From Candidatus Peregrinibacteria bacterium (lineage in GTDB: Bacteria > Patescibacteriota > Gracilibacteria > Peribacterales > Peribacteraceae): a stretch of DNA of 34,181 bases. The notes under the pieces are model-generated. The model searched no databases. It saw only the letters and a program-made list of their open reading frames with translations, and was not told where the DNA came from. How positions within the stretch are numbered: position 1 is the stretch's first letter; each line of letters opens with the position of its first letter. The stretch spans positions 1 through 34,181 of the forward strand of contig JACPXZ010000036.1 of assembly GCA_016196225.1 (NCBI GenBank), written 5' to 3'. Shown here piece by piece: positions 2,473-21,819 of this stretch. The position numbers were made by a program, and so were the translations under genes.

Positions 2473-2484
2473 CTATTTCTTTTA

Positions 2485-2531: not shown

Positions 2532-2555
2532 ATGTTTCTGTATATTATTTGGTTA

Positions 2556-2591: not shown

Positions 2592-2622
2592 AAAAAACAT
2601 TGCTTATGCAAATGGATAATGA

Positions 2623-2669: not shown

Positions 2670-2681
2670 AAAAAAGTCAAT

Positions 2682-3871: not shown

Positions 3872-3872
3872 T

Positions 3873-4952
3873 CTAAACCTTCACCGGAGATTTTTCCTTC
3901 GCGGACTCTTGTGACAGGATCGACTTTCGCGCTTCTTCCACTGCCTTCCACAGTTGATCGAAGGCCAAGCGTTCCTCCGGCGACATGACCGGTACTCCCC
4001 ACTGTTCACAAGCAGCTTTGAGGATATCCGAGCGTATGGATCCGCTGACGCCGTCTCCGCCGCGGTAGCCATATGTATTCATCCCGACGAGTTCCACGAC
4101 CAATTCTACTTTTCCATCTTTTTCTCGGACTTTACGGATGGAGAAGAGGCCTCCGCCGGAGTTCCCCGGATTGATGGGGGCGTCCGTCTGGAGGAAGATA
4201 TTCCCGGGTTCGATATCCCCGTGACGGGCACCGTGGCTGATAATGCCGTGGGTGACGGAATCGCGATTACGGAATGGAGTGCCGACGGCAATGACCGGAT
4301 CTCCTTGGTGTAAAGGGTGGGTGACGAGATTGTGCATGCGGACTCCACGTGCCTCCGCCGGGAGACGAATGTCCACTGGGATTTCGATAAGAGCGATATC
4401 TTGTATTTTTGTTCCGTCTCCCTGAAAATTGAAGTGCGCGCGCTGCCCATTGCTTAAAATGACCGGTGCGGCTTTGAATGAAATGGGTTTCTTGAAGTCG
4501 TCGCCGTTATAGAGTGTTATGTCGTACACCGGGTCTCCAAATTCGTTCACGCGGATTTCCGAATCTTCCGTGACATGGGCGTTAGTGAGGATAAATCTGC
4601 GTCCGAGGTCATCAATAATAATGGTGCCGGAGCCGGTCACTGTTGCCTTTTGTCCGAAGTACTCGAATTCCCCCTGCACGCGAACGGTGGAGGGTGTGAC
4701 CAAATCTGCGGCCTCTGCAAGGTCGTCGATGGTGACCTGGAGTTCAAGCTGGTTTAGGCGATCGATGTTTGATGCAACTCTTACTTCTGCCTCGTCGATC
4801 CGATGAGATGTTCTCTGTGCATAGTCGACGCCAAGGATACCCGCTGTTGCGGCTCCGGTGGCGATAGCGATACCGCCGATCAAATTAGTTAGCGCGCCAC
4901 CTTTGCGGGATGTGTTGTACGCGTGATCGTGCTCAGGTGAATGATACGACAT
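3873..4952 (-). CDS. Membrane-anchored trypsin-like serine protease (S1C, DegP/HtrA-like) without a PDZ domain
   Basis: A 359-residue protein. A hydrophobic stretch at about 24-43 follows a short charged N-terminus and should act as a signal anchor, placing the protease domain outside the membrane. The catalytic triad is visible: His126 in TNAHV, Asp185 in DIALIEIP, and Ser265 in the oxyanion-hole motif GNSGGGLF. A helical linker (about 47-80) follows the anchor. After the protease domain only a short helical tail remains (MSPEERLAFDQLWKAVEEA), too short for the PDZ domains usual in DegP/DegS. It heads an operon with the 61-residue and coiled-coil genes. The likely role is envelope protein quality control or cleavage of a specific exported substrate; the latter is inference. 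Start chosen at the ATG at 4952; its upstream region is pyrimidine-rich with no Shine-Dalgarno. Confidence 0.9.
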   Translation of the reverse strand: MSYHSPEHDHAYNTSRKGGALTNLIGGIAIATGAATAGILGVDYAQRTSHRIDEAEVRVASNIDRLNQLELQVTIDDLAEAADLVTPSTVRVQGEFEYFGQKATVTGSGTIIIDDLGRRFILTNAHVTEDSEIRVNEFGDPVYDITLYNGDDFKKPISFKAAPVILSNGQRAHFNFQGDGTKIQDIALIEIPVDIRLPAEARGVRMHNLVTHPLHQGDPVIAVGTPFRNRDSVTHGIISHGARHGDIEPGNIFLQTDAPINPGNSGGGLFSIRKVREKDGKVELVVELVGMNTYGYRGGDGVSGSIRSDILKAACEQWGVPVMSPEERLAFDQLWKAVEEARKSILSQESAKEKSPVKV

Positions 4953-5104
4953 AGAGGGGAGGGGAAGGTTTAAAAATAATAGTAATGTTTAGTTAACAAT
5001 TTGTAAATGGTAATTGACGTCATATTTCGTGGTTGTCATGGGATTTTTCCATTCTTTTTGTAACCAAAACGAACCCTGCCGGCAGGCAGGCGCCGGCATT
5101 TTGG

Positions 5105-5132
5105 GCCACCTTTGTTGCCGGACAAAGGTGGC
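5105..5132 (+). repeat. Perfect 10-bp inverted repeat upstream of aspS
   Basis: GCCACCTTTG at 5105-5114 pairs with CAAAGGTGGC at 5123-5132 around the loop TTGCCGGA. The loop contains TTGCCG (5115-5120), the best -35 candidate for aspS, with 18 bases to TACCAT at 5139. The repeat may therefore be an operator. It may equally be a dispersed repeat, because part of it recurs at 2573-2588. Confidence 0.65.
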
Positions 5133-5138
5133 ATACTC

Positions 5139-5144
5139 TACCAT
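5139..5144 (+). promoter_or_regulatory. Candidate -10 box (TACCAT) of aspS
   Basis: TACCAT ends six bases before the ATG at 5151, with TTGCCG 18 bases upstream as a possible -35. The spacing implies a leaderless or nearly leaderless transcript. Confidence 0.45.
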
Positions 5145-5150
5145 TCCCCT

Positions 5151-6944
5151 ATGCTCCGCACTCATACCTGTGGCGAACTCAATGCCAAGCATGTGAAAAA
5201 ATCCGTGACTCTTTGCGGGTGGGTACATCGGCGGCGGGATCATGGAGGATTGATTTTTGTGGATTTGCGCGATCGATATGGTTTTACGCAAATTGTTTTT
5301 GATCCAGAGAACAAAGATGTTTTTTCGGTTGCTGAACGGATTCGTCCTGAATGGGTGCTCAAGATTGAGGGAATTGTTCGCAAGCGTTTGGAAGGTGCAG
5401 AGCGGCAGGAGAATCCGACGGGAGGTATGGAGGTCGTGGTGAGTGCTGTTGAAATTTTCAGTGAATCCAAAACGCCTCCGTTTGAGATTGACCAGCCTCC
5501 GCTAAAGCTACGGCCGGCAGGTCAAGAGAAAGATGTGAATGAAGAACTTCGACTGCAATATCGTTTCCTTGATCTTCGTCGTCCGCGTCTCCAGGAAATT
5601 CTGAAGAATCGTGATGCGTTCATTCAACATATTCGGACATACATGCATAAGAAAAACTTTGTAGAGATTCAGACACCCATTCTGGCGAATTCTTCCCCCG
5701 AGGGTGCACGTGATTATCTTGTTCCGAGTCGTCTCCACAAAGGTACGTTCTATGCCCTCCCGCAAGCGCCGCAACAGTTCAAGCAGCTCCTCATGGTCGC
5801 AGGGATGGACCGGTACTTCCAGATTGCCCCGTGTTTTCGGGATGAAGATCCCCGGGCAGATCGTCATCCGGGGGAGTTCTACCAGTTGGACTTGGAAATG
5901 AGCTTTGTCACCCAAGAGGATGTGTTTAACACGGTCGAACCGCTGATGGTGGAACTCACCGAAAAATTTAGTGATAAAAAAATATTGGAAAAACCTTTTC
6001 CGCGATTTGCATGGAAAGAGATGATGACGCGCTACGGGAGTGATAAGCCGGATTTACGTTTTGAGCTCCCGATCGAGGTTATCACGGATGATGTTAAAGA
6101 GTGCGGATTTAAGGTATTTGCGGACACCGTGCATCAAAAAGGAGTCGTGCATGCATTGCTCGTACCTAAGGGGGCGGAATTCTCCCGTAGCCAGATCGAT
6201 GATCTTACCGATCTTGCCAAGATTCATGGAGCAAAGGGGCTTGCCTACATTCTTGTTCGGGATCATGAACTCCAATCACCGATTACGAAATTTTTAGGGG
6301 ACGATCTTGCATGGCGGATGGTCAAACAACTGAAAGCGAAGTCGGGCGATGCGATATTTTTTGGCGCTGATACATGGCTCACGGTTTGTAAATCGTTAGG
6401 CGCGGTACGCGATCAGATCGGGCGGTTGCAGGGATTCAAGGATCCCAAAAAAGCGGCGTGGGGTTGGGTCACGGACTTCCCGATGTATGAGTGGAGCGAG
6501 AGTGAAGGGAAAATCGATTTTTCTCATAATCCATTCTCGATGCCACAAGGGGGGATGGAGGATCTCCTCCATAAGGATCCTCTTGATATCCTTGGATACC
6601 AGTATGATCTGTTCTGCAACGGGTTTGAAATTAGTTCGGGGGCGATCCGCAACTACAAACCTGAGGTGATGTACAAGGCATTCGAAATTGCAGGATATTC
6701 CAAAAAAGAAGTGGATGAAAAATTTGGAGGGATGATCCGGGCTTTCCAGTATGGAGCCCAGCCCCATGGCGGATTCGCACCCGGTATTGATCGCCTCATG
6801 ATGGTGCTCTGGGAGTGTCCCAGCATCCGCGATATCTATGCCTTCCCCAAGAATGGCAAAGCGCAGGACAGCATGATGGGTGCCCCTTCGCAAGTATCAC
6901 AAAAACAATTGAAGGAGTTGGGGATAAGGATTGTTGAAGAATAG
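5151..6944 (+). CDS. aspS: Aspartyl-tRNA synthetase, probably non-discriminating
   Basis: A 597-residue class IIb synthetase that charges tRNA-Asp with aspartate. Parts in order: an N-terminal OB-fold anticodon-binding domain (about 1-105, CGWVHRRRDHGGLIF), the class II catalytic core with motif 2 around APCFRDEDPRADR, the bacterial GAD insertion (about 280-400), and motif 3 in the C-terminal GGFAPGIDRLMM. His31 within RRRDHGG is the residue associated with bacterial non-discriminating AspRS, which also charges tRNA-Asn. This predicts an Asp-tRNA-Asn amidotransferase (GatCAB) elsewhere in the genome. The start was set at 5151 because family similarity begins at MLRTHTCGEL. A longer frame from a TTG at 5112 would run through the upstream hairpin. 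nrdR follows after 14 bases. Confidence 0.96.
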   Translation: MLRTHTCGELNAKHVKKSVTLCGWVHRRRDHGGLIFVDLRDRYGFTQIVFDPENKDVFSVAERIRPEWVLKIEGIVRKRLEGAERQENPTGGMEVVVSAVEIFSESKTPPFEIDQPPLKLRPAGQEKDVNEELRLQYRFLDLRRPRLQEILKNRDAFIQHIRTYMHKKNFVEIQTPILANSSPEGARDYLVPSRLHKGTFYALPQAPQQFKQLLMVAGMDRYFQIAPCFRDEDPRADRHPGEFYQLDLEMSFVTQEDVFNTVEPLMVELTEKFSDKKILEKPFPRFAWKEMMTRYGSDKPDLRFELPIEVITDDVKECGFKVFADTVHQKGVVHALLVPKGAEFSRSQIDDLTDLAKIHGAKGLAYILVRDHELQSPITKFLGDDLAWRMVKQLKAKSGDAIFFGADTWLTVCKSLGAVRDQIGRLQGFKDPKKAAWGWVTDFPMYEWSESEGKIDFSHNPFSMPQGGMEDLLHKDPLDILGYQYDLFCNGFEISSGAIRNYKPEVMYKAFEIAGYSKKEVDEKFGGMIRAFQYGAQPHGGFAPGIDRLMMVLWECPSIRDIYAFPKNGKAQDSMMGAPSQVSQKQLKELGIRIVEE

Positions 6945-6958
6945 ATTAACCAACTTGT

Positions 6959-7405
6959 ATGCATTGTCCTCATTGTAAACATGAAGAGACCTCAGTCATC
7001 GACTCGCGTCTCGCCGAAGACGGGCGGGCCGTGCGTCGCCGTCGCGAGTGCGTAAAATGCAGTCATCGCTTCACAAGCTTCGAACGGCAGGAATTGAATA
7101 CCCTTATTGTCATCAAACGTGACGGGACCCGCGAGCCGTATTCCCGGCCGAAAATCGAACGAGGGGTATGGCTTGCCTGTACCAAACGTCCCGTTACGCA
7201 GCACAAGATTGATGCGATGCTCTCCAAATTGGAGGAAAAATGGGCAAGTAACAAACAAGAAGTCCAAAGCTCCACGATAGGGACCGATGTCATGCGCGAA
7301 CTCAAGCGTCTGGATAAAGTGGCGTACATTCGATTCGCTTCCGTCCACCGGGAGTTTAAGGATGTTGATGAGTTTAAAGAGGAGCTGGGAAAACTATTTA
7401 AGTAA
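6959..7405 (+). CDS. nrdR: Transcriptional repressor NrdR
   Basis: A 148-residue regulator of ribonucleotide reductase genes that senses ATP/dATP. The N-terminal zinc ribbon has Cys3, Cys6, Cys31 and Cys34 (CPHC and CVKC). An ATP-cone domain follows (about 47-137, starting LIVIKRDGTREPYSRPKI). Length is the usual 150 or so. The start at 6959 lies 14 bases after the aspS stop, so the two are probably co-transcribed. TAGATT at 6942-6947 overlaps the aspS stop codon and could also drive a short separate transcript. No ribonucleotide reductase gene or clear pair of NrdR boxes was found in this window. The gene faces tsaC across a repeat-filled convergent gap. Confidence 0.96.
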   Translation: MHCPHCKHEETSVIDSRLAEDGRAVRRRRECVKCSHRFTSFERQELNTLIVIKRDGTREPYSRPKIERGVWLACTKRPVTQHKIDAMLSKLEEKWASNKQEVQSSTIGTDVMRELKRLDKVAYIRFASVHREFKDVDEFKEELGKLFK

Positions 7406-7444
7406 ATTTAAAATTTTGGTAGACAAAAAATACATACAAAAACA

Positions 7445-7564
7445 TGTCATGCTGAGGTGTGAGTGGAGCGAGAGCGGAACGAACCTCGAAGCATCATCAT
7501 AAGAAACAGTCGTTTTATGATCCTTCGAGGCTCCTCACTGCGTTCGTCGCACCTCAGGATGACA
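7445..7564. repeat. Inverted pair of family 1 repeat units in a convergent gap
   Basis: Two units in opposite orientation: 7445-7496 begins TGTCATGCTGAGGTG and ends CCTCGAAGCATCA; 7518-7564 begins TGATCCTTCGAGGC and ends CACCTCAGGATGACA. They are separated by 21 bases. Together they form a large palindrome, extended by ACATGTCAT and ATGACATGT at the two edges. The pair sits between the 3' ends of nrdR and tsaC, where a large hairpin could terminate transcription from both sides. Confidence 0.85.
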
Positions 7565-7579
7565 TGTATGTGTTTTTCT

Positions 7580-8122
7580 TTATAACCGTAACATTTTTGG
7601 CTCTTGGCCCGTGCAATCCACAACTTTCGATGGTGGCACTTCCGGGAGATTGCCACTGTCCAGAATCAAATCACAAGGAACGATGTCATCCACACAGTAA
7701 GGATTGGGTTGTCCGTGCAGGTTGGCGGAGGTTGTTGAAAGAGGTTTGCCGAATTCTTTTGCGAGGCGGCGCGCGATCGGATGTGATGAAATGCGAATGC
7801 CCAGCGAAGAGGCATTCGATTTTAAACATGAGAAGATAATAGTGTTTTTTTTGAGGGGGAGAATGAGGGTCAGTGGGCCCGGGAGATATGTTGTTGCCAA
7901 ATCCTCTGCAAGTGCATTCCACTCCACATATTTTTTTGCTTCCTCAATGGAAGTAAATAATGCGCTTACGGGCATATCGTTTGGACGATGTTTTATACCA
8001 AATAGTTTTGCGACCGCCGTCGGATTTGTCATATCACATGCAAGCCCGTAACAGGTCTCAGTGGCATGAGCAATCACTCCGCCATATTGTAGAATGCGTA
8101 GTGCTTTTTTGATGTTACGCAC
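7580..8122 (-). CDS. tsaC: L-threonylcarbamoyladenylate synthase (TsaC/YrdC/Sua5 family)
   Basis: A 180-residue protein that makes threonylcarbamoyl-AMP from threonine, bicarbonate and ATP, the first step of the t6A37 tRNA modification. Family signatures are visible: ATETCYGLACD (about 20-30), KHRPNDMPV (about 44-52), LPGPLTLIL (about 79-87), LGIRISSHP (about 108-116) and PLSTTSANLHG (about 127-137). Length fits the single-domain TsaC form, without the Sua5 C-terminal domain. The GTG start (8120-8122) overlaps the dnaE TAG stop by one base, so translation is probably coupled to dnaE. No in-frame ATG exists near the N-terminus. No other t6A genes (tsaB, tsaD, tsaE) are present in the window. 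Confidence 0.93.
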   Translation of the reverse strand: MRNIKKALRILQYGGVIAHATETCYGLACDMTNPTAVAKLFGIKHRPNDMPVSALFTSIEEAKKYVEWNALAEDLATTYLPGPLTLILPLKKNTIIFSCLKSNASSLGIRISSHPIARRLAKEFGKPLSTTSANLHGQPNPYCVDDIVPCDLILDSGNLPEVPPSKVVDCTGQEPKMLRL

Positions 8123-11100
8123 TATTCACTACTAACTAAATACTTCCCCACCACTTCCTCAATCTTCTTTTCCAGAATAGTGGACATGGAGATCGTGAGA
8201 GAGACAGGGATAATAGTCTCTCCAATTTTTAACTGCACACGCTCCTTACCAGGAAACTTCTCGAACGTATGTTTGAGTTCGATGAGGAGTTGTTTGGGAG
8301 CGCGCTCCGGCAGAGCAATGGTGTGGATCGATATTTGGAGAGCAGGGGACGAAACGGGAATGAGATCGTGAGTGGGCATTCCTTCTTTAATCCATGCAGC
8401 CAATGGTCCAAGAAAAGTGTTCTCTTCCTTAAATACGGTCATCCGCTCTCCTGCAATGACATTCCCTTCCTCATCAACCAATTCCACCGTTTCTTCCGTT
8501 GGTATTATGGAGTTCGATCGTGACGGGAAGGAGGAGGCGGACTCATCAAAAAATCCTTCTGCCTTGGCATGCGCGATCATCGTAGAGAGGGAGGCCCGTT
8601 TTACGGCATCGGCGCGAACCTGGAGAGCCCCTGCACGCACATTGAGCGATCCCCCGATGACAAGCACGGTATCCGGTTGTTCAAGAAAGTTCTGTGCTGA
8701 CGCGAAGACCTTTGGAAAAAGAGTCACTTCTATTTTTCCGGTGGGATCTTCCAGAAGAATCACGCCCATCGTCTCTCCTTTTTTTGTCTGGATCCGCCGG
8801 ATGGTCTCGACTAACCCTGCCACGGTGATTTTACGGCCGGCATCCTTTACCGAAAATTGCTCGATGAGTTGTGCTTTTTTACCGATGTACTTTTTGAGTC
8901 CCATCAACGGATGACTTGAGACATAGAGACCCAAACACTCTTTTTCCCACTGCAAACGCTGCTGTGGAGAAGCCGGGACAGTGGAGGCAAACTCAATGGT
9001 GGCTTTGGCGAAACTCTCGGAGGTTGTTGCAAAGAGATCCCCCTGTCCTTGTTGAGAATCGCCGCATGCTTTTTTAAAATCGATGATTTTTGTGTAATGT
9101 TCCAACAGTCTTCTTCGTTCCCCGAACGAATCAAGGGCGCCGGATTTTGCAAGAGCCTCGATGAGTTTTTTATTGAGGAGTTTTGCGGGGAGGCGACGAG
9201 CAAGATCTTCGAGGGACGTAAATACTCCTGCTCGTTCCCGTTCGTCGATGATGGTGCGGACGGATGTATCACCTATTCCTTTAATGGCGGACAGCCCAAA
9301 ACGGATGGCTTTTTCGGGAGGGCGGGCAGTGAAGTGTCGAAGCGATTGGTTAATGTCGGGAGGGAGAACATTGATACCCATGGCGCGACATTCTTCTATT
9401 TCCACAAGGATACGGTCGGTACGTGAGGCATCACTGCTGAGGAGCGCCGCCATAAATTCGACCGGATAGTGTGCTTTGAGGTAGGCGGTCTCGAAGGCAA
9501 TGCGTGCGTAACATACTGCATGTGACTTGGGGAAGCCGTAGCCGGCAAATGGCAGCACGACGTCGTCGAATATTTTTTCAGCGAGCGGTTGCGGGTGATG
9601 CAGACTGATTGCACCCTGAATAAATTTCTCCCGTTGGGCATGGAGTTCCTCTTTTATTTTTTTTCCGATTGCTCTGCGGAGTAAATCGGCTTCTCCCAGA
9701 GAAAATCCTGCAAACGTCTGTGCGAGCTTAAGAATTTGCTCCTGATATACGCCGATGCCGTACGTTTCTTGAAGAATGTCTTTTAAATCAGGGTGGAGGT
9801 AGACCACTTTTTCTTGTCCATGTTTACGCTTGATGTAATCCGGTATCCATTCCATGGGCCCGGGGCGGTAGAGGGCTGCCATGGCAGTAATGTCCTGGAA
9901 TGTAGAGGGTTTAAGTTGCCGAAGGTATCGCCGCATTCCGGCGGATTCAAACTGAAACACTCCGGTTGTTTCTCCACGCTTGAGGAGATCGAATGCTTTA
10001 CGATCGGACGGTGGAATGCGGCGTATATCCACCTCTTTGTCGCATGTTCTTTTGATGATTTCCAGTGTTGTCTGGATAACCGTCAGGTTGGTCAGTCCTA
10101 AAAAGTCCATTTTGAGGAGGCCGAGCGCATGGAGAGATTTGGCGGCAAATTGTGTGATGATCGTTTGATCATCTTTGGGAGCTCGTTGGAGAGCGGTGAA
10201 GGTGACGGCGGGTTCGGGAGTAATAATGACGCCGCAGGCATGAATGGAAACGTGGCGATTTTTCCCTTCGAGTTTGAGTGCGGCATCGAAAATCCGACGG
10301 TAGGTTTCGTTGCCGGTATAAGCAGTGTGAAGTTCATCGGTTTTGAGTGCGTCGCAGAGTCTTGTTCCCGGCCGATCTGGGATGAGTTTTGCCAGTGCAT
10401 TCATTTCCAGGAATGAAACGCCGTACGCGCGTCCGACATCTTTGACCGCTGCTCGGGCAGCCAGTGTCCCAAAGGTACATATCTGTACAACGTGGTCTTT
10501 CCCGTACTTTTCGCGCACGTATTCGAGTACTTCATCCCGTCGGGTATCGGCAAAATCCATATCGATATCGGGCATGTCGATCCGCTCCGGATTAAGGAAT
10601 CGTTCGAAGATGAGTCCATGTTCCAGAGGGTCGAGTGCGGTAATATTGAGGGAGTAGCTCACGAGAGATCCCGCTGCTGATCCCCGACCGGGACCGACGG
10701 TGATGCCACGGCGTTTCGCCTCATTCACAAAGTCTGCGACGATGAGAAAGTAGCCCGAAAACCCCATTTGTTTGATGATTTGGAGTTCATGCTCAAGGCG
10801 CGCGCGGTGGAGATCCGAGGTATGTTCTCCATACCGCTGCATAAGTCCGATCTCGGCAAGACGACGGAGTTCGCTGTCTTCCGATTCGTGTAACGGTACG
10901 GTGAATCGGGGAATATGGTATCCGGTATTTTTGAAAGAAATCTGACAGCGATCGGCAATAGCGCGCGAATTTTTTAAGGCATCCGGCACGTGACCAAATA
11001 CACGTTCAAGTTCACTGAACGGACGCATGGAGAAGTCGCACCCCTGCATAGAGAACCGGTTGGGATCGTTGACGAGCGCATTTTTTTGGATACAGAGGAG

Positions 11101-11769
11101 GACATCGTGAGCTTCGGCGTCTTCGGGTCGGCAGTAGTGGCTGGCACAGGTTACGACCAGAGGGATGTCGAGGGCTTTGCTCCATGTAATCAGTTGTTGA
11201 TTGATCTCGGCTTGTCCGGTGACATTGGGGAGATCAATAAGTTCAAAGTACACGTTGTTTTTCCCGAAGAACGATTGATATTTCTCCGCAAGTGCCGTGA
11301 TGCGATCTCCGTCTTCTGCGAGAGCGGCTTGAGGGATAAGTCCCTCGATGGAGCCGGAAAGCGCAATAAGCCCATTGCCGTAGGTTTTGAGGAGTTCATC
11401 ATCGACCCGTGGTTTGCCGTACAATCCCTCGAGAGAGGCGAACGTCGCGAGTTTCAAAAGATTTTGATATCCGTCCTGCGACTCCGCGATGAGGATCAGA
11501 GGTGAAAGGGCAGCATCGATAGTGGGATCGAGGTCTAGCCGTGTCCGTGCCGCGACGTAGACCTCCATGCCGAGAACGGGTTTGAGATTATATTTGTGTG
11601 CGGCTTGATAGAACTCCATCAGGCCATAGGTGTAGCCTTTATCCGTGAGAGCAACGGCGGATTGTCCAAGTTCATGCGCCCGCAAAACAATCTCCTCAGG
11701 GCTTGGTAATGCTTCAAGAAGAGAGTAGGTGCTGTGGAAATGCAGATGGACGAAATCTTCGGATCTCAC
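8122..11769 (-). CDS. dnaE: DNA polymerase III alpha subunit (DnaE type)
   Basis: The replicative polymerase, 1215 residues. Order of parts: N-terminal PHP domain (HLHFHSTYS at 8-16, metal-binding histidines present); palm with GPGRGSAAGS (359-368) and the catalytic PDIDMDF at 400-406, so Asp401 and Asp403; the third acidic residue in KMDFLGLTNL (near 560); helix-hairpin-helix region (AIKGIGDTSVRTI); OB fold (about 990-1040, ITVAGLVETIRRI); and a C-terminal tail-like domain. Only a DnaE-type core is seen, with no inserted exonuclease and no intein. The start is GTG at 11769; no in-frame start lies between it and the upstream stop. TATACT is seven bases upstream. tsaC follows with a one-base overlap. 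Confidence 0.97.
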   Translation of the reverse strand: MRSEDFVHLHFHSTYSLLEALPSPEEIVLRAHELGQSAVALTDKGYTYGLMEFYQAAHKYNLKPVLGMEVYVAARTRLDLDPTIDAALSPLILIAESQDGYQNLLKLATFASLEGLYGKPRVDDELLKTYGNGLIALSGSIEGLIPQAALAEDGDRITALAEKYQSFFGKNNVYFELIDLPNVTGQAEINQQLITWSKALDIPLVVTCASHYCRPEDAEAHDVLLCIQKNALVNDPNRFSMQGCDFSMRPFSELERVFGHVPDALKNSRAIADRCQISFKNTGYHIPRFTVPLHESEDSELRRLAEIGLMQRYGEHTSDLHRARLEHELQIIKQMGFSGYFLIVADFVNEAKRRGITVGPGRGSAAGSLVSYSLNITALDPLEHGLIFERFLNPERIDMPDIDMDFADTRRDEVLEYVREKYGKDHVVQICTFGTLAARAAVKDVGRAYGVSFLEMNALAKLIPDRPGTRLCDALKTDELHTAYTGNETYRRIFDAALKLEGKNRHVSIHACGVIITPEPAVTFTALQRAPKDDQTIITQFAAKSLHALGLLKMDFLGLTNLTVIQTTLEIIKRTCDKEVDIRRIPPSDRKAFDLLKRGETTGVFQFESAGMRRYLRQLKPSTFQDITAMAALYRPGPMEWIPDYIKRKHGQEKVVYLHPDLKDILQETYGIGVYQEQILKLAQTFAGFSLGEADLLRRAIGKKIKEELHAQREKFIQGAISLHHPQPLAEKIFDDVVLPFAGYGFPKSHAVCYARIAFETAYLKAHYPVEFMAALLSSDASRTDRILVEIEECRAMGINVLPPDINQSLRHFTARPPEKAIRFGLSAIKGIGDTSVRTIIDERERAGVFTSLEDLARRLPAKLLNKKLIEALAKSGALDSFGERRRLLEHYTKIIDFKKACGDSQQGQGDLFATTSESFAKATIEFASTVPASPQQRLQWEKECLGLYVSSHPLMGLKKYIGKKAQLIEQFSVKDAGRKITVAGLVETIRRIQTKKGETMGVILLEDPTGKIEVTLFPKVFASAQNFLEQPDTVLVIGGSLNVRAGALQVRADAVKRASLSTMIAHAKAEGFFDESASSFPSRSNSIIPTEETVELVDEEGNVIAGERMTVFKEENTFLGPLAAWIKEGMPTHDLIPVSSPALQISIHTIALPERAPKQLLIELKHTFEKFPGKERVQLKIGETIIPVSLTISMSTILEKKIEEVVGKYLVSSE

Positions 11770-11807: not shown

Positions 11808-13493
11808 CTAGTTGCACGAATTCTGCGGGATGGGGAAGTTCATTTCGGAGTCCAGTTTTGCCGCCTGTATACATTTTTCGGAGCGAGGGCTCTCGCACGA
11901 ATCCCCAAGAAACGAACCGTTCGTGTACGGGAAGCATTCGTCGGCGAGTGCAATGCGAATAATCTTTTCGAGGATCATATTGCATGGCTGGTACACGCAT
12001 GTTCGGCGGATAAAATATGCAAACGCAATGGCGAATTCACGCATGCCGCTGCGGTCACTTGCGAGCGTTGCAAAGCTACCCACGGCACCCCGCAGAGGAC
12101 CAAGCGCGCCCCGCATTTCGAGGAGAGGATCGCTGCCAATAGGGAAGATGGTACTGTCACCCTGTTCCTGGAGACGACTGAAGAGTTGGAGTGCCGGTCG
12201 GGCAATGAATTGGAACATGGCACCGAATCCCGTTGTGTTTGGACTGACACCGCTGGTAGAAGGAGACAGCGCAGAAAATTCTTGGGGGAATTTGTAAACA
12301 TCCGGAAATTCACGTGATTCGCCATCCGCTTCGCGCGTTTCCCGAAAAACGTCGAGAATGCGTGGCTCATCTTTCTCAATCGAGAATGGTCCGCGCAGTT
12401 CCCACCAATTTGCATCTTCAGCGGTAATGCATCGGTCGCCAAATCCGCATTCCGCGTCATTGATACATGATTGAGAAGAATTCCGTTCACAGGATCCGCG
12501 CTTTAGTCCACTGACGCAGTTCCCCATGCCCGACTGTTGGCAGTCGATATTTTCAGTACATTGCATCTGTCTGTTAAATTCGCAGAAATTTCGGAGGCAT
12601 CCTCCTGCTGTGCGATGCAATCGAGGGGCGGACGGGACGGGACTGGTACCTGTTTGTTGCTGAAGATCCATGATTTGTTGTGCTTGTAAAAGGTAGGTTG
12701 ATACCTGGGTGGTAAGGGACTGGAGACTTGCCCGTTCGTCCGCGGTCGGTCGATGAGCGGTTCGCGGGGTAAGAATATCCAGATCGCAGCCAAACCCGAT
12801 CACGTTTGGCGGGAGATAATCGGTGTGGAACGGGCACATTTCTGTCTGGCACATTGGATTGCAACCGATCCCGCCGTCACATTCTTCCCCCACTTCTATA
12901 ATGTCGTTCCCGCATGTTGGCAGGGTGACAGTGGTGGCGGGCGTTCCAAATACATACGGACCACTGGGATTATCAAATAAGAAGGACCGGTGCCAGAACG
13001 GATCCTGATAGGACGGGTCCCGTGCGCCTTCGACGAGAACTTGGAGATGTTGGTTAAGAAAATGAAGCAAAGACTGAAGTCGTAAGATGCTTTCGGTCCT
13101 TTTGCCGACAATGGCCTGATGGAATGCCGTGCGCACCTCGTCTATTTTGCATTCGAGGAGGTACACATCAATGCGCAAACATGCGGTATTGCGAAGAAGA
13201 TCGCGCTCTGTTTGTACAATACGAAATTGCGTATCGAGTAGGGAAAGAAACGCGGTCTCAATCGCGCGGATCCAGCTTGGAAGGTACGTATTAAAGTTTG
13301 CATGGGCGGATTGTGTGGAGGCAAATGTAAGACCGGCGCTGGCTCGTTCGAGAACGCGCTCTGTAAAATGGGAGGAAACGGGGGGGAGAGACTGGAGAGC
13401 ATCCTTACAGTCGGGACTGAGGAGTGCTTGAGCCGGTTCTGGTTGGAGAACAAACATCGAAGCGATGCCGATCATGATGATTATCCGCTTCAT
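11808..13493 (-). CDS. Exported Cys-rich protein of unknown function (cassette gene 5)
   Basis: A 561-residue protein. The ATG at 13493 is preferred over one six codons upstream because it overlaps the previous TGA as ATGA and places a clean signal peptide (MKRIIIMIGIASMF to AQA, about 1-23) at the N-terminus. A helical region (about 30-160) contains several Cys. A segment near 195-220 reads CGNDIIEVGEECDGG followed by CNPMC, resembling the Cys-rich repeat of exported myxobacterial and other bacterial surface proteins (DUF4215-like). A second Cys-rich block (about 300-365, CLRNFCEF to CITAED) follows. The C-terminal half is helical with a few more Cys (RRTCVYQPCN). No enzyme motif was recognised. 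It is probably an extracytoplasmic, disulfide-stabilised protein working with the four genes before it. Confidence 0.85.
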   Translation of the reverse strand: MKRIIIMIGIASMFVLQPEPAQALLSPDCKDALQSLPPVSSHFTERVLERASAGLTFASTQSAHANFNTYLPSWIRAIETAFLSLLDTQFRIVQTERDLLRNTACLRIDVYLLECKIDEVRTAFHQAIVGKRTESILRLQSLLHFLNQHLQVLVEGARDPSYQDPFWHRSFLFDNPSGPYVFGTPATTVTLPTCGNDIIEVGEECDGGIGCNPMCQTEMCPFHTDYLPPNVIGFGCDLDILTPRTAHRPTADERASLQSLTTQVSTYLLQAQQIMDLQQQTGTSPVPSAPRLHRTAGGCLRNFCEFNRQMQCTENIDCQQSGMGNCVSGLKRGSCERNSSQSCINDAECGFGDRCITAEDANWWELRGPFSIEKDEPRILDVFRETREADGESREFPDVYKFPQEFSALSPSTSGVSPNTTGFGAMFQFIARPALQLFSRLQEQGDSTIFPIGSDPLLEMRGALGPLRGAVGSFATLASDRSGMREFAIAFAYFIRRTCVYQPCNMILEKIIRIALADECFPYTNGSFLGDSCESPRSEKCIQAAKLDSEMNFPIPQNSCN

Positions 13494-15406
13494 GGGGTTC
13501 CAAATGGGCACATCGCAACCGGAAATTCAGTCTCTTTTATCGAAGAAAGCAGTGTACTTGCGATATGGATGATGTCCGCAAGAGATCGGGTGGTTGCGCG
13601 GAGGTAATTGGCATAGAGACTTGTCGCGATGCGGGTTCCGATTGCTGCACCGGTAAGTTCCAGTCCCTTTATCGGTTCGTGTTGTTCTTTTCCCTGCATG
13701 AGAAGACGTTGGATGAGTGGTTGATAATCGGTTCCGGGATATGAGAGTGCCCGTCGGATATCAAAAAGACAAAGTGCGGGAGGGGTTCGCGGCGGGAGTC
13801 CGTTTATTTGACAAAGAGCGGCATCCAGCTTTTGGATAAGGAGTTGAGGACGATATCGGGGGATCGTTGTTTGGGTGATCGGAGGGATTTGGAGGATGGG
13901 AGTCCGTACAGGTTCAGGTTGTATACGACTTTCCCATGGATAGGACTGCCCTTCGACGACAAAGGTATTCTGGCCGGAGGTAAGGCGGTGGTATTCGAGC
14001 GATCCCTCAATACATGCGCCGATATAGCAGGCATTATTCCCGATGGTATTGCGATAAAGGACTTGTTCCCTCGGATCGCAGACAGGGCGTGAAGGTGTCG
14101 AGGATGAACTGCTTGTATTGATGCCGGTTGTTCGCCAGGCAATATCGGCACAGAGATCGGGGCCGAGTTGCGTGGTTTTAACGGTTGCATTTTTGTTCTG
14201 CTGACAACGCATGAGGGTGATTTGGTTGGTTTGAGTGGGTGGCTGTCCGCTCTCATCACATTTCTCGCCGGCGGTCTTGATACGATCGCGGCAAAGATAT
14301 CCCTTTGCAGGGAAGGGGTGAGTGCACAGGCCGAGCCCATCAACGGGTTTGTTTCCGGATACAGGGGCCGGCGGGTAGCGCCCGCCGAGAATGGCCTCTC
14401 CGTTGTCGCCAATGAGGGATGGTAGAGCGGGTTCTTGAGGGAACTGCCAGTGAAGACCGATGTCTCCCCATGGCCATCCAGCATTGGGATTCCCGTCAAT
14501 ACGTGCCCAGATAATAATGTTTTCGGGCATGTGCTGATCGAGGAAATCATTACCAAAGATAAATAGGACGATTTCCTTTTTGTCGAGTGGGGGATCGAAC
14601 TCATTCACATCGAAAGGGTTTTTGGGAAGGGCGCTCCAGATATCAACGAGCGCCTGCTCAATATCAGAGGTGCCGTTACTGCCGTTCCATCGCCGAAAGA
14701 GATCCTGACGTTCGGTATTGAGGCCGTTATCGGGATCACCACTCGGAGCTTCGAGGTGGAATGGAAGAAGTGGAGAAATACCAAATGAGGGAGTGCGCTC
14801 TCCTCGAACGAAACGCAGACCGTGCTGGTAGCGCCAAACCGCAGCAGCGCGTTCGTGCTCGGGGACTGCTATCAGTTTTGTACGGAGCGTATCCACCAGT
14901 GGACCCATGACCTGATGATCAATCAGTTTGGTTCGGACGAGGACGCCGGTACCGACATCTTCAATGTTTCCGCCTGTTCCCGTTTGCCAAATACTGATGA
15001 TGCCCTGATAGCGGGAGGAAAAATCCAGAGCCCGTCCCGGCATGCCATCTACCGGGAGTTCCTCGCCGGTGGTAAGCGCCTGCAAATTACGGCCGACGGC
15101 TCGGACCAATATTTCGCGTCCGAGGATGTCTCTGATCCGGACACGAAATTCCGCGCAATCGGTATGTTGTTTGGCGGGTTGTTTACCGCACACCGTTGCG
15201 ATCTGATTGCGAATAGTGCCGGTAATATCGGCGTCCGTGACATCCGAATAGATCTTCTGAATAAATTGTTTCACAATGGATTCGGCGTCCTCAAAGAGGA
15301 GTTCTTTCTTGAGCATATCAACGGTGTTTGTGTACGGGGAGGCGATAGCTCGCATGGGGACTATGAGACAAATTGCAATGCCGATCATAAAAGTGGGAAT
15401 GTTCAT
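13490..15406 (-). CDS. Exported protein of unknown function (cassette gene 4)
   Basis: A 638-residue protein. The start at 15406 forms an ATGA overlap with the preceding gene and gives a signal peptide (MNIPTFMIGIAICLIVP to AIA, about 1-22); a longer frame runs upstream but would bury the signal peptide. The N-terminal region (about 25-160) is helical, with VCGKQPAKQHTDC holding a Cys pair. A Pro/Trp-rich middle contains IIIWARIDGNPNAGWPWGD and a stretch of short Cys-containing segments (LCTHPFPAKGYLCRDRIK, CDPREQVLYR, CYIGACIEG) with a Ser-rich linker. The C-terminal region (about 560-638) is helical. No catalytic motif or membrane helix beyond the signal was found. Family unknown to me. Confidence 0.84.
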   Translation of the reverse strand: MNIPTFMIGIAICLIVPMRAIASPYTNTVDMLKKELLFEDAESIVKQFIQKIYSDVTDADITGTIRNQIATVCGKQPAKQHTDCAEFRVRIRDILGREILVRAVGRNLQALTTGEELPVDGMPGRALDFSSRYQGIISIWQTGTGGNIEDVGTGVLVRTKLIDHQVMGPLVDTLRTKLIAVPEHERAAAVWRYQHGLRFVRGERTPSFGISPLLPFHLEAPSGDPDNGLNTERQDLFRRWNGSNGTSDIEQALVDIWSALPKNPFDVNEFDPPLDKKEIVLFIFGNDFLDQHMPENIIIWARIDGNPNAGWPWGDIGLHWQFPQEPALPSLIGDNGEAILGGRYPPAPVSGNKPVDGLGLCTHPFPAKGYLCRDRIKTAGEKCDESGQPPTQTNQITLMRCQQNKNATVKTTQLGPDLCADIAWRTTGINTSSSSSTPSRPVCDPREQVLYRNTIGNNACYIGACIEGSLEYHRLTSGQNTFVVEGQSYPWESRIQPEPVRTPILQIPPITQTTIPRYRPQLLIQKLDAALCQINGLPPRTPPALCLFDIRRALSYPGTDYQPLIQRLLMQGKEQHEPIKGLELTGAAIGTRIATSLYANYLRATTRSLADIIHIASTLLSSIKETEFPVAMCPFGTP

Positions 15407-16170
15407 GATGGCGGAGGGTCTCGAAGTGATCCGCGGGCATCCCAGACGCGGGGGAGACAAGTGCTGCCTTCGGAGATAAGGCCGAGGACATTGCGAAGGT
15501 CCAAGGACGCGCGTTCGATGCATTCGAGATCAAGGAGAAATGGACGCAGGCGATCGAGAGCGCCGCTCGTGGAGAGGATGCGGTCGAGCGCCGATCGCGC
15601 AATACGAAGTTCCTGCTCGATAACGGACTCCCGGCGTTTACGTTCGACGCCGAATTCTGGCCACTGGAGAGGAAGCTTGGAAAAAAGAGGAGCATCATTC
15701 ATGATATTGACGTCGAGAAAGGTTCGGTGGTTTTTCAGAGCGCACTCATAGATGCGCAAAAATTCAAGGAGGACCACACCAAAATCCTGTTCGGAAAGAC
15801 TGGCGAGATTTTGCGGGTCCTGCCATGGAGGAAGTTGGGTGGCAATGAGGAAGAGTGGAGCGCTCGGTTGCAACAGACCGGAAAGGTCTGGGGCGGCGCA
15901 CTGAAGATTGGAGAAGAACGGTGAATCGGATCCCTGGTTATTAAAACTCTTGAGATGTGCAGTCACGGCAGCGTCTACCAGTTGATGGTAGGCATATGCC
16001 CAAAAATTGAAGGGGATCAGAGAGAAAATGGTTCCATCACCGGAGCAGGGGGGTAAGGTCGTATTGACAAAAAATCCCTGACGCGGAGGGGTGTTCCCTG
16101 GTGTGCAACTTGCGGTTATGATCGCAAGGAGAAACGTTGCCAGCGCTTTTTTGGATTGGTTCAATCGCAT
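15403..16170 (-). CDS. Predicted lipoprotein of unknown function (cassette gene 3)
   Basis: A 255-residue protein. The N-terminus MRLNQSKKALATFLLAIITASC has a basic start, a hydrophobic core and a plausible lipobox ending at Cys22, so it should be lipidated and anchored on the outer face of the membrane. The mature part is mainly helical with sparse Cys (at LPPCSG, NLQCAAPD, IYECALK, DLECIERAS and STCLPRV), giving possible disulfides. It starts 10 bases inside the previous gene and ends in an ATGA overlap with the next. LspA, which would process it, is encoded at 27135. Function unknown. Confidence 0.82.
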   Translation of the reverse strand: MRLNQSKKALATFLLAIITASCTPGNTPPRQGFFVNTTLPPCSGDGTIFSLIPFNFWAYAYHQLVDAAVTAHLKSFNNQGSDSPFFSNLQCAAPDLSGLLQPSAPLFLIATQLPPWQDPQNLASLSEQDFGVVLLEFLRIYECALKNHRTFLDVNIMNDAPLFSKLPLQWPEFGVERKRRESVIEQELRIARSALDRILSTSGALDRLRPFLLDLECIERASLDLRNVLGLISEGSTCLPRVWDARGSLRDPPPS

Positions 16171-16961
16171 TGGGAGATGAAGCAGGGGATACGGTCGAGC
16201 TGTCCGAGAATAGTCGCCGCATCCCAGAGCGGACGAAGGAGTGGGAAGCGCAGTGCATTGGTAAAGTTCTCAAATGCGCCGGCAAACTGAAGGAGGGATC
16301 GGTATCCGGCATCGTAGGCAACCGTCATTTCGAGGAGACTGATCTCCCGGGAAAGGAGGGCATCGGCGGACTCGAGGCATCGTGCATACATATCGGTCGG
16401 GAGTGCGGGGTTGGTTTTTTCGGTGAATGCGCAACCGGTAAATGTTGGGAAGGACATTTGCATGCACCCTGCCGGTTGGACTTTTGTGAGCGGACCTACC
16501 TCTGTTGGTGCTTGTTGTATGGTGAGGCAAATGGCAGCGAGGCGACATTGGAAAGCACGTATGCTCTGGGTGAGTGCGGGTATGAGTTCGGATGTGCTTG
16601 TATGGCGAATCTCGAAGATTCCGCGTCGGGTACGTGTTCCACTGATGCGATCCGTCTCGGATGATCCATCCACCAGCATGTCTGTAAGAGTGTTGGTATT
16701 CACGAGAGATTTCCAGGTATTTTTTTGCGTCTTCATCCACACACTTTTATCGTTCAAATGACGTACAGAACCGAGCGGTTCATGTTCTGCTTTTGGGAGA
16801 CCAAGGAGGACGCTGCGATATACGCGCTGTTCCTGAGCCATCGTGTTATACATATCAGCGGTACAGGAATTGAAATCCGGACTCTGGGCAGAGGTGCGAA
16901 AGACCGCAGCGCATGTGCCGATGCCAACAAGAACGCCGATTGTAGTCCATCGGGAAGGCAT
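16161..16961 (-). CDS. Exported helical protein of unknown function (cassette gene 2)
   Basis: A 266-residue protein with an N-terminal signal sequence (MPSRWTTIGVLVGIGTCAAVF, cleavage near TSAQS). The mature chain is predicted helical throughout, with paired Cys in QCRLAAICLT, GCMQMSFPTFTGC and the C-terminal PCFISQCD. The start codon lies one base after the TGA of the 1236-residue gene, so the two must be co-translated. Its C-terminal helical region, around EISLLEMTVAYDAGYRSLLQF, has the look of cassette gene 3, but I could not align them convincingly. No enzyme motif seen. Confidence 0.82.
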   Translation of the reverse strand: MPSRWTTIGVLVGIGTCAAVFRTSAQSPDFNSCTADMYNTMAQEQRVYRSVLLGLPKAEHEPLGSVRHLNDKSVWMKTQKNTWKSLVNTNTLTDMLVDGSSETDRISGTRTRRGIFEIRHTSTSELIPALTQSIRAFQCRLAAICLTIQQAPTEVGPLTKVQPAGCMQMSFPTFTGCAFTEKTNPALPTDMYARCLESADALLSREISLLEMTVAYDAGYRSLLQFAGAFENFTNALRFPLLRPLWDAATILGQLDRIPCFISQCD

Positions 16962-16962
16962 G

Positions 16963-19900
16963 TCAGGGGGTGAGGGGAAGGGAGGGGAGAACGGGACGAA
17001 GATCCACGCGTGGAACGATTTTCATCGACTCCAGGAGATCAGATGGTTTTGCCTCGTAGAGCGGCATGGCTGAGGACGACACTCCTCCAATCGGCTCCGG
17101 CAGATTGATGCTGCGTATGTTCGTACGGACGGCATCGATAAAATCCTGCTGGATGGTCGGGGCGTTGATCTTCCACCCCTCTTTGGGAAAGCGCGCTTTT
17201 GTATTGAGGAAGAGACAAACGTGATCGTCGGGAGGACAGGTGAAGGGATCGCTCCGCGGTTCACCATGTGAATCATAATCTTCGGCAAGGAGCACCGCAG
17301 GGCGGGATCCGATCCGGGTAAATCGTTCGAGGAGATCCATCTCGATGTGAACGCAGGGCCAGCTGGCCCATGCGGGACACCAAAAATACACTTCTCCGGT
17401 TTCTTCATCTTCAAAGTGGACGAGGCTGGACCAGAAGTCTTCATAACCTGGGAATCCTCCTGTTCCCTCTTCGGTTCCATAGGTCATGACGTACACCATG
17501 TAGAATATCTGAACCAATTCTTGCCAGAGTTTTTGTATGGAAGTGGCATCCGTGATGAGTGGTGGAGGGATGATCACACTTGGGGGGTTACCGAGAACTT
17601 GCACGTTTTGCAGTGGTACGTTATTGAGAGCATTACTCATGACATCCTTGATACCTTGGATGGAGGGAAGGTCGGCGAGTGTCGGGACAATCCCAGGGAG
17701 CGTCTCGATGGATGGCGGGCGGAGTTTTTCGATGTCGAGTTTAATTTGGATGGGACTGAGTACCGGGATCGTGATCGTTCCGGATGCCGTGATATTCAGC
17801 ATGGAGAAATCAAAGACAAAGTCCGTCGAGGTCTGGATCCCGTGGAGGATGGGAAGACACTGCGGCCACTTGATGGATCCGTCGGACGGACACGAATAGT
17901 CGAGAGAGCCATTGACGCGACCGGTCCGGTTTTCGCGTACCGGGATAAACGGATCAATGAGAGAATAGATGGGGATCGTGAATCGTTGGTTCATGCACCA
18001 GGGGAAATTCACGGTATCGTGGAATTGTTGATAAATATATTGCGTGAATTGCCAGACGGGGAGGAGCTCAGAGAAAATTTGCTGCCGACGATTGAGGAAG
18101 TCCCGGTACACGGTCAGGTTTTCTTCGATCCAATTTGCAATGGGCATAACAATACCGCTTTGCGTTTGTAAGGTGCGACCGAGATAGTAGGCAAGTTCTC
18201 CGCGTAGTCCCCTGACATCTTCAATACGCTCTGCATAGAGTTCGAGTTTTTTGATCAGATCAAGAACTTTCGGTGGAGCTCCGTCGCAGGTATTGATACG
18301 GCTGGCCGCTTGCGTATCGGGGATCTGGCGGTTGGAATATCCGATCCACCATGTGCACCAGTTCTCCGCAATCGCGCGGAGTTCCGTCGGAGATCCCATG
18401 GGGACGACGACGGGGACGGGTTCTTGTTCGATGTTGAGGAGGACCGATCGCTCGATGTAGGCGGCGACCTCGCCCATGAGGTCTTCGTGCGCGCGGAGTT
18501 GCACTTCCAGCGCATCGGTGCGGGTAAGGGGATTTGGGGACCCGATGCGCGTGGGGGTAAAGAGGGGGTCGAGGGGATCAATGCCGATCGCCCAGGTTGC
18601 GGGGAGAAGAAGCCGGACGGTTGGCGGAGAGAAAAGCATATTTGCTTTGGTCTGTTCACCTTGCCACCACTCGACGATCGGGCGGAGATCGCCGGTATCG
18701 TTTGTCACGGCATCATCGAATGCGCGGACGTATTTTTCCGCATAAGCGGATGAGCCGGATTGCTGCAGATGTTCCATGCGCATCTCGGCGGAATCGGGTT
18801 TGAGGAGGGCGAGAGAGAGATCCTTCCCCATCTTTTTGTCGAATATTTTCTCGTTGATAAAAGAGAATCCTCCTCCGAGCTTGAGATACCAAGGATCCTC
18901 ATCTTCGTCAAAATCGCCGCGCGCAAGCGGAGTACCGCCAAATCGTTGGTTTGGATCGAGTGCGGGATCACGATCGAGGATAGAGGAATTCTGTCCATAC
19001 TCTCCACGGAGCATGTGACTTTTTCGCATTTGTTCCCGGAGTGTTTTGTCCTTATCTTCCCCGAAGATATCGATGACGCAGCGCCAGTCGGAGGTATCCG
19101 GCATTTCTTCCAGCGGGTCAAATTCGCGGTACCACCCGTAGCAGGCGACTTCCCCTTCTTTTTCCGTCACTTCATCGATGGGATCATCGCTTGTTTGAAT
19201 AATGGGAGGGACGGGGAGAGGGTCGCGGGTAAATTTACTCTGATAGCGGCGGAAGAAGGAGATATACGGTGCGCCGTTTTTGGGAGCCATCCGCTCCGAA
19301 GCGAAGCATCCATCGATCGGACAACGACATTCTGCGCCCGGAGTGGAGTCGTCTTTGGTATAGGCGGCGGCCCCGACGAGATTAATATGATCTTCCACGC
19401 CGCAGGTCGTGACATTGGGATACTCGGTGTTTTCTTTGATCAAATATTCTTCGCATTGAGCAGGGATCTTGATGCCACTATGGTCTTCATCCAACCATAC
19501 CCAGCCGTGAGGAGCGATAAGTTTTCTGGCGTTTGGAGGAAAATCTCCGTCGTCATTTTTACACCATGCCTGCCATGGATGTGTACTCGGCGGTTTGGCG
19601 CCGTCTTCGTACGTACTATCCCAGACTGCCGGAGTGACTGCTTCGGTAGCATCCGCTGTACAAATGAATTTTTCACCAGCATGTTTTCCATCTTTCTCGA
19701 GCGCTTGCCTCATCAGACAGGCAAATGTCACCCACCCTTCCCATGTCGGACATTCAGCGAATCCAGGCAGTAAGGACTCTCCTGCTTCGGCGTACCCGTC
19801 GAGAATCGGGCAGCTATTACATTTTGCTTGAGTGTGCACAACACTGCCGTTGAGAGTGGCGTTTGTATCGTCTGTTGAATACGTATCCCATGCGTATAAC

Positions 19901-20671
19901 CACCAATCACAGGTTTCTTCTTTTACACCATCTTGTTCCCAGTGGCCTGCACCGGTTTCTTCATCATCAACAACCCATTTCCATTTTATTTCACAGGCAT
20001 ACGCATACATCCCCGCATAACATTCGCTGATCCGACACACGGGATAACGCCATTCGTTGTTGATGATGTCCGAGACCTTGAGGCAACTTTTTTCTGTGCT
20101 GCAAAACTGCTCGGGAATATTGAAGAATGCTTCGGGGAGCCACTCGCACCAGGGATTCTGGGTATCGTAGGCAAAAGCATATCCTTCCGCGCCGTGCGGG
20201 TACTTAAAATCATTATCTGCGCGAGCGGCCATTCCGGAGGGGGTATTCCCGCTCCATGTCCCCTCCCGTCCGGGGAGTCCTTCGAGAGGAGCGAGGGGAT
20301 ACCCGAGCATTTTGGGGAGTTGTACTAAAGGGATTCCATTTTCCGGAGTCTCCGGTGGTTCCGGCATATCTTGGGAAGATTCGGGCACTTCACTTTCGGC
20401 CCCGTCACCGTCCTCGATTTGTGCAATGTCTGCGATTTTTCCCTCAACACTTTCTTCTTTGTCCCACCCTCCGCATTGGGTCTCTTCAAAATAATCAAAA
20501 ATTTCTCCATCCTTCGTGACAAAATCTTGTCCGGTGACTTGCTCAAGTTCTTGGATACTGCCGGGAACGGGACTTGAAAGTTGATAAGGATCGCGCGCCT
20601 CGGCTGGCCTCGCGAAGGAGATCGTGAGTCCCATCAGAACCCCAAATGCCCAAAATGCAGTTTTTGTATTC
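16963..20671 (-). CDS. Large exported Cys/Trp-rich protein of unknown function (cassette gene 1); start codon TTG at 20671-20673
   Basis: A 1236-residue protein and the first gene of the cassette. Translation probably starts at a TTG occupying 20671-20673, because the signal peptide (MNTKTAFWAFGVLMGLTISF to AEA, about 1-26) begins there and a stop lies three codons upstream; the full CDS therefore extends to 20673. After an acidic Glu/Pro segment (about 85-110) there is a long region rich in Trp and Cys (about 165-540), with many CxnC pairs suited to disulfides. A helical region follows (about 760-860, containing ELAYYLGRTLQTQ). The C-terminal part is beta-rich and Pro-rich, with SGTITIPVLSPIQIKLDI. 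No second membrane segment and no sortase motif were found. It is likely a cell-surface or periplasm-like structural protein; family not recognised. Confidence 0.85.
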
Positions 20672-20681
20672 AAATCTATCT

Positions 20682-20840: not shown

Positions 20841-21707
20841 TTAAAACGGCAAATCCTCTACTTTTATCTCCGACGTATAGTCGATCGCAGGGATAGCTCC
20901 GACGCCAACCAAATCCTGGTCCGATGGTGGGGACGTTTCGCCCGCAGAGTTCGCTTCGCTATGCTTAACGCTATCCGTCTGGATGAACTCCTGAATACTC
21001 GGATCTTTGACTCCAAGAGGCACCACGCTCTCGGCAATGATTTCGGTGGTGTACCGTTTTACTCCGGCTTGGGTCTCAAAACTTCGGGTTTGCACCCGTC
21101 CTGTGGCATAGACTCGTTGCCCCTTTTTCATTGTTACTTGTGCTTGTTCTGCTAGCGCACCCCATACGACCACGTTATGGAATTCGGTCCGTTCGCGTGA
21201 TTCTCCGGTATTTCGTTCTTTCCAGCGGTCATTGGTGGCAACACCCAATGTGAGCACATGTTGACCACTCGGAGTCGTTCGCATTTCCGGATCGCGGGTG
21301 ACGTTCCCGATGACAAATGCTTGATTGAGACCGGAGGTAGTGGACTCTCCACTCTTTAACTCTCGTTGTCCGTCTTTTGGATCGAGCATGATCAGATCCA
21401 TGGCAACAATCTTGGTTTTGCTCCGCTTTTCATTACTTTTCGTGTCCTCCCATGTATCGGTTTGCAATCGTCCGGAAATAAAGAGTTGCGAGCCCGGACG
21501 CACAAACTGTCGGACGACATCCGCCATCGCACTCCAGACCGTAACAGTATGGAAGTTTTTTCCTTCGATCCATTGTCCGTTCTCACCCTTAAAGCGATAC
21601 GGTGTCACAAGGTTCATATCGGTGACTGAGGTCCCCGAGGGAGTTTGACGAACTAAAATTGGTTGTGTTTGGTACCCGATAAGATGAACACGATTGAGAG
21701 AGAACAT
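20841..21707 (-). CDS. ssb: Single-stranded DNA-binding protein with two OB folds
   Basis: A 288-residue protein carrying two complete SSB domains. OB1 (about 1-112) begins MFSLNRVHLIGYQTQP, with PSGTSVTDMNLVT and GSQLFISGRLQTDTWED. OB2 (about 128-232) begins LNQAFVIGNVTRDPEM, with PSGQHVLTLGVATN, EFHNVVVWG and GQRVYATGRVQTRSFE. A short flexible tail ends in EDLPF, matching the acidic C-terminal tip that recruits partner proteins. Most bacterial SSBs have one OB fold and act as tetramers; two per chain, as in Deinococcus/Thermus, predicts a dimer. The start at 21707 was chosen because similarity begins there; a longer frame reaches 21764. TACCCT lies eight bases upstream. The region upstream to the repeat at 21820 holds no gene. 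Confidence 0.94.
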   Translation of the reverse strand: MFSLNRVHLIGYQTQPILVRQTPSGTSVTDMNLVTPYRFKGENGQWIEGKNFHTVTVWSAMADVVRQFVRPGSQLFISGRLQTDTWEDTKSNEKRSKTKIVAMDLIMLDPKDGQRELKSGESTTSGLNQAFVIGNVTRDPEMRTTPSGQHVLTLGVATNDRWKERNTGESRERTEFHNVVVWGALAEQAQVTMKKGQRVYATGRVQTRSFETQAGVKRYTTEIIAESVVPLGVKDPSIQEFIQTDSVKHSEANSAGETSPPSDQDLVGVGAIPAIDYTSEIKVEDLPF

Positions 21708-21715
21708 AGTAGAGA

Positions 21716-21721
21716 AGGGTA
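21716..21721 (-). promoter_or_regulatory. Candidate -10 box (TACCCT) of ssb
   Basis: TACCCT on the minus strand ends 8 bases before the ATG at 21707. It is a weak match by itself, and is listed because its position fits the other start-proximal TAnnnT boxes. Confidence 0.35.
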
Positions 21722-21819
21722 GGGAGTAAAGGAGGCCACGGAGATGACCACGTGCATGGTGCACTGATGTTTCATTAAAAACAAATAAATGAAGTTGAAG
21801 GCTTTGGAAGTTTGTTGTG

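Follow-up and report, generated by a model that had tools for sequence, protein, structure and literature searches.

Five adjacent genes in a Candidatus Peribacteraceae genome of 1.09 Mb form a real, conserved cassette that is apparently undescribed and that probably encodes a class-specific, Sec-exported surface complex. Such a complex would be built on one protein, A, with four disulfide-stabilised exported partners, B to E, and attachment would be its likeliest role. The window, which is the whole stretch of DNA that was analysed, is an entire contig of 34,181 bp. An initial annotation of the window had proposed that the set was an undescribed, conserved multi-protein exported unit, and this proposal held: linked A-B-C-D(-E) genes recur across the class and match no known family.

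All five genes lie on the minus strand. Gene A (16963..20673) starts with TTG and encodes an exported, Cys-containing protein of 1,236 amino acids, a shortened orthologue of a giant surface protein found throughout the class. It is followed by gene B (16161..16961; 266 amino acids), whose exported product has eight conserved Cys residues and a PCF..QC motif at its C terminus, and by gene C (15403..16170; 255 amino acids), whose product is membrane tethered. Gene D (13490..15406; 638 amino acids) encodes an exported, Cys-rich protein, and gene E (11808..13493; 561 amino acids) encodes an exported, Cys-containing one. A single base (16962) separates A from B, B and C overlap by 10 bases, and the C/D and D/E junctions are ATGA overlaps; the five coupled same-strand genes, their lengths, and the four junctions of the initial annotation were thus reproduced exactly when the open reading frames were rechecked. 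The cassette is bounded upstream by ssb (20841..21764, minus strand) and downstream by dnaE (8122..11769, minus strand), which lies 38 bp past E. Scans upstream of A for a sigma-70 promoter and a terminator found neither. The ssb product itself, of 307 amino acids, apparently has two OB-type SSB units in tandem and a tail with the sequence DLPF. By eye, positions 28737-33201 of the window also read as a suf-like cluster that holds sufC, sufB, and a short gene similar to sufD.

Each of the five proteins has a hydrophobic export segment at its N terminus, as do most of their orthologues, in agreement with the export signals originally read in all five. The Cys patterns reported alongside them also proved to be conserved. 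In the window's proteins, the Cys residues retained in at least 90% of Peribacteraceae sequences number 11 of 30 in A, 8 of 9 in B, 5 of 6 in C, 13 of 16 in D, and 8 of 24 in E.

Next, we searched for known families and folds. No Pfam or NCBIfam model reached its cut-off for A to E, and PDB sequence searches with single proteins and with profiles returned nothing credible, as expected from the earlier remark that the set had no recognised family. The window's A matched no Pfam family at an E value of 5 or below and hence carries neither an SLH domain (PF00395) nor an adhesion domain. The annotated lack of likeness to pilus, S-layer, and type IV secretion components was borne out as well, with no Pfam or NCBIfam model of these matched by any protein of the window. 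Pilin domains were not matched by A to E in either database, and the N termini resemble Sec signals by inspection. Every member of the C and D alignments, scanned singly against Pfam (and D also against NCBIfam), gave no Tra or Vir match. Profile comparison among A to E found no paralogy, the sole signal being the signal peptide common to D and E.

AlphaFold2 models were then used to look at A and D. The model of A residues 60 to 1236 (pLDDT 68, pTM 0.63) and the alignment together delimit a core at approximately residues 548 to 1059 (17497..19032, minus strand), the segment common to the giant orthologues. This core is predicted to contain strands, a continuous helix of about 89 residues (residues ~801 to 889; 18007..18273, minus strand; 742 to 830 in the numbering of the model, which begins at residue 60), and a proline-rich extended stretch that forms its tail; it also has a Trp/Cys motif. 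In the model of D (pLDDT 69.5), the N-terminal half is well predicted, with helices and a few strands, and the Cys-rich half is uncertain. Compared with the PDB, these middling models of A and D gave best Foldseek E values of 2.0 and 1.7 and VIA Z scores of at most 2.6 and at most 4.8, respectively, a lack of match that does not establish a new fold. The profile searches suggested at the outset found no known family, and for A and D the structure searches add models of middling quality with no credible PDB fold.

Within the family, A was present in 41 of 48 genomes, and a single-sequence search recovered it in none of 31 genomes outside the family. The locus order, read from loci L031 to L067, is gltX, (murB, ssb), A, B, C, D, E, dnaE, sua5, and aspS, with extra genes occasionally inserted before dnaE. 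Peribacteraceae A to E sequences share about 20 to 40% identity and many invariant Cys, Trp, Gly, and Pro residues. One divergent Peribacteraceae cassette (L100 of genome G039, positions 3-11108) encodes a 756-amino-acid A, B, and C and then an open reading frame of at least 2,458 amino acids at the D/E position. Five genomes of the family, from the genera g6, g9, and g24, had neither A nor C. In G005, G008, G042, and G023, dnaE, ssb, murB, and gltX are contiguous and the cassette is cleanly missing, so that ssb adjoins dnaE. The starred branches of a quick dnaE tree force at least two changes (losses). Since this locus cleanly lacks the cassette in three genera, the unit can be dispensed with and is lost in its entirety.

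To follow A beyond the family, we used a Peribacteraceae profile, which gave weak local matches within open reading frames of 3,300 to 5,300 amino acids in other families of the class, and then a profile of the core (A6) built from both groups, Peribacteraceae and giants. The class is GTDB Gracilibacteria, as inferred in part because sister families use TGA in frame (code 25), as Absconditabacteria and Gracilibacteria are known to do (PMC8080830, PMC11452946). The A6 profile matched 249 of the 289 class genomes (200 of the 228 better ones), mostly with E values of 1e-40 to 1e-135 and usually in one copy. When genomes were drawn from the whole phylum, 35 class genomes matched, and among about 345 genomes outside the class there was one borderline match (8e-4). 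On the core-of-A profile, the cassette is restricted to the class. Protein C was found in 195 of the 289 class genomes; by the A and C lists, 182 genomes had both, 67 had A only, 13 had C only, and 27 had neither, counts in which some A-negative genomes may be masked (N) at A or broken by contig ends. Two loci (L186 and L187) are masked at the A position and were left out as uninformative on A.

Linked A-B-C-D(-E) genes occur in 14 families besides Peribacteraceae (f2, f4, f5, f9, f15, f16, f18, f20, f21, f23, f25, f26, f27, and f31), so the synteny check proposed initially found the gene order kept within the family and far beyond it. In a few of these families, one partner was weakly scored or uncalled, examples being B of f31 and E of f15, of f5, and of one f16 locus. 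Profile-profile comparison of the positional partners matched on the diagonal only, with probabilities of 88.8% for B (from a set that still included two stray TPR proteins), 95.9% for C, 94.0% for E, and 28.9% for D, and at most 6.5% off the diagonal. Sequences in L088 and L101 that had initially been taken as B homologues were TPR proteins and were dropped. All 192 measurable neighbouring pairs were on the same strand, 186 of them within 150 bp, and the median distance was -4 nt at all four junctions. The recurrence of this order and coupling in 14 other families places the arrangement beyond chance. Furthermore, the flanking genes vary between families (dnaE in Peribacteraceae, uvrA-like genes elsewhere by inspection), and conservation across such differing flanks implies that the five genes are one inherited unit. 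Families f29 and f11 keep an intact B-C-D-E block that stands apart from A (L176 and L177). Code-25 families f14 and f22 have A with no linked B to E recognised, and C was found weakly elsewhere in several code-25 families, so that the partners there may be unlinked, diverged, or non-obligatory. Neither A nor C was found in f7 and f13, for which loss or divergence could account.

Outside Peribacteraceae, A is typically about 3,700 to 5,600 amino acids long. Two full giants jointly bear SLH, Invasin_D3, Big_1, FG-GAP, and TSP3 domains (Pfam). SLH was detected in A orthologues with E values of 1.3e-27 (L096), 5.9e-13 (L091), and 5.1e-11 (L129), as well as in A frames of 4,194, 4,519, and 5,617 amino acids, and partial giants of f16 and f18 carry SLH, TSP3, or FG-GAP. 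It was not found in L133, and two code-25 partial giants were scanned with no Pfam match of any kind. Giants align with one another over long stretches beyond the core as well. Many of them have a conserved C-terminal domain that contains a CxxCPC motif and was unmatched in Pfam where scanned (L091, L093-L095, L129-L140, L147, and L148). Peribacteraceae A ends about 180 residues past the core, often in a poly-Ser tail, and most versions are only about 1,000 to 1,570 amino acids long, yet all four partners are retained. On these alignments, Peribacteraceae A reads as a trimmed member of the class-wide giant family. SLH domains were abundant in all 29 class genomes examined (3 to 82 matches per genome); their presence even in the one cassette-free genome among these indicates that walls bearing SLH ligands are a general trait of the class.

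The partner proteins were examined individually. The lipobox-like site that had been noted is present in C, but it is imperfect (TASC); a better lipobox occurs in L032 and L036, and most C orthologues have an N-terminal transmembrane anchor instead, with a lipobox-like site in a few, among them the window's C. The DUF4215-like segment pointed out in E corresponds to a sub-threshold TIGR02232 match (E value, 0.26) and is not conserved in orthologues; it is a local trait, and DUF4215 was rejected as a hallmark of the cassette. The statement that no protein has an enzyme motif is correct for the window, whose D lacks any HExxH insert, but not beyond it: a Cys-rich, HExxHAxx metallopeptidase-like insert with the pattern HELxHAxQ...CC..E is present in 18 of 36 Peribacteraceae D proteins (loci L031 to L065; for example, at residue 502 of the L047 D) and in 0 of 18 outside the family. 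When members were scanned singly, this insert was weakly M76-like (Pfam M76 E value, 5e-4 at best). Peribacteraceae D proteins of similar length exist without the motif, and the segment is a lineage-specific addition.

Outside Peribacteraceae, a Cys lies within the last 10 residues in 17 of 18 B, 18 of 20 C, 12 of 18 D, and 15 of 16 E proteins, compared with an expectation from composition of 15 to 20%, related sequences not being independent. This near-C-terminal Cys common to B to E fits inter-subunit disulfides. From sequence pattern, and for D also from the model, B, D, and E are predicted to be largely alpha-helical.

In the arrangement that we propose, A would be the central, outward part of the complex. 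In most families it would be a giant fibre with SLH domains as its wall anchor and with Ig-like, FG-GAP, and TSP3 modules; the Peribacteraceae form would consist of the conserved core and an N-terminal Cys-containing part. C would tether the complex to the cytoplasmic membrane, with either a transmembrane helix or a lipid as the anchor. The other three partners, B, D, and E, probably assemble with C and the A core and so would build A, anchor it, or present it; together with the helical and proline-rich core they may make up a disulfide-stabilised base or shaft. From there the outer part of A, which varies between a giant form in other families and a reduced one in Peribacteraceae, would reach outward. 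Because the window's A has no SLH or adhesion domain, we infer its location from its orthologues. Attachment to other cells or surfaces is favoured as the likeliest job because of the adhesion-type modules in giant A and because host attachment has been proposed for the clade's giant surface proteins (PMC8080830). The surface and attachment idea of the initial annotation therefore stands as the best reading, drawn from orthologues with SLH and adhesion-type domains, with the role itself only presumed.

The main rival, which we consider unlikely, is that B to E form a dedicated export or assembly device (a trans-envelope conduit, chaperones, or maturation factors) and that the surface structure is A alone. 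One very large client beside four smaller exported partners would suit such a device, as would the ability of B-C-D-E to stand as a block away from A and the peptidase-like insert in half of Peribacteraceae D proteins. However, the block contains no ATPase, channel, or multi-span membrane gene, its products are exported single-anchor proteins, and the four partners are still kept where A has shrunk in most Peribacteraceae. Operons can also group proteins of one compartment, and the five could be separate envelope proteins joined merely as an expression unit with no common structure; survival of content and order in 15 families whose flanking housekeeping genes differ (uvrA, dnaE, and others) and the loss of the genes together make this improbable. 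Least probable of all is a novel contact apparatus for predatory or epibiotic attack that docks to or perforates the prey envelope. The class does include predatory Absconditabacteria, whose giant surface proteins were proposed to serve host attachment (PMC8080830), and A is present class-wide, but no lytic, pore, or effector domain was seen (Pfam and NCBIfam on the window's proteins, Pfam on the giants), and some genera show clean cassette losses.

Taken together, these comparisons leave the surface complex built on A, with attachment as its likeliest role, as the probable reading. Its broadest form, a new, class-defining, giant-based surface machine for cell contact in the Gracilibacteria/Peregrinibacteria/Absconditabacteria group, with no relation to pili, secretion systems, or known S-layers, is offered tentatively, as a possibility that we would not yet favour. 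The means by which these ultra-small and probably host-dependent bacteria attach to other cells are not settled, and the usual candidates are pili and unnamed 'giant proteins'. For one giant protein there is now a defined orthologous family with a class-wide range and four conserved partner genes, as well as relatives that naturally lack the cassette. The attachment question thereby becomes testable, with proteins to label, co-express, and solve and relatives to compare.

Among known systems, F-type conjugation encodes exported Cys-rich proteins (TraN, TraU, TraH, TrbC, and TraF) in one operon. A to E have no Pfam or NCBIfam match to these five, and no type IV secretion ATPase or inner-membrane gene lies nearby; the Peribacteraceae flanks (ssb, murB, gltX, dnaE, sua5, and aspS) hold no secretion ATPase or polytopic membrane genes. 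SLH S-layer and surface proteins (PF00395) are similar in the SLH and adhesion-type modules of A orthologues from other families, whereas the window's A lacks SLH and the conserved core and B to E match no S-layer component. We know of no SLH system with four co-encoded exported partners.

Closer to the clade, attachment has been proposed as the role of the giant surface proteins in Vampirococcus lugosii (PMC8080830) and of large exported proteins, rich in Cys, in Ca. Peribacter (PMC4736985); all of them are large, exported, and of the same clade and can be set beside A by description. The portions of these two reports that were accessible give no account of the cassette, its partners, or class-wide conservation. 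More widely, the literature covered, with subscription papers and supplements outside the search, makes general remarks on the clade's giant or Cys-rich surface proteins (PMC8080830, PMC4736985, PMC11573180) and does not describe the cassette. By description, the giant extracellular proteins of Apilactobacillus kunkeei (PMC12863079) are also alike, with consecutive very large surface-protein genes in a small genome, but they belong to another phylum and are five giants, whereas the cassette has one giant and four partners of ordinary size. The protein families of the cassette are new; the kind of system that it likely represents, exported partners around a giant surface protein, is known in part.
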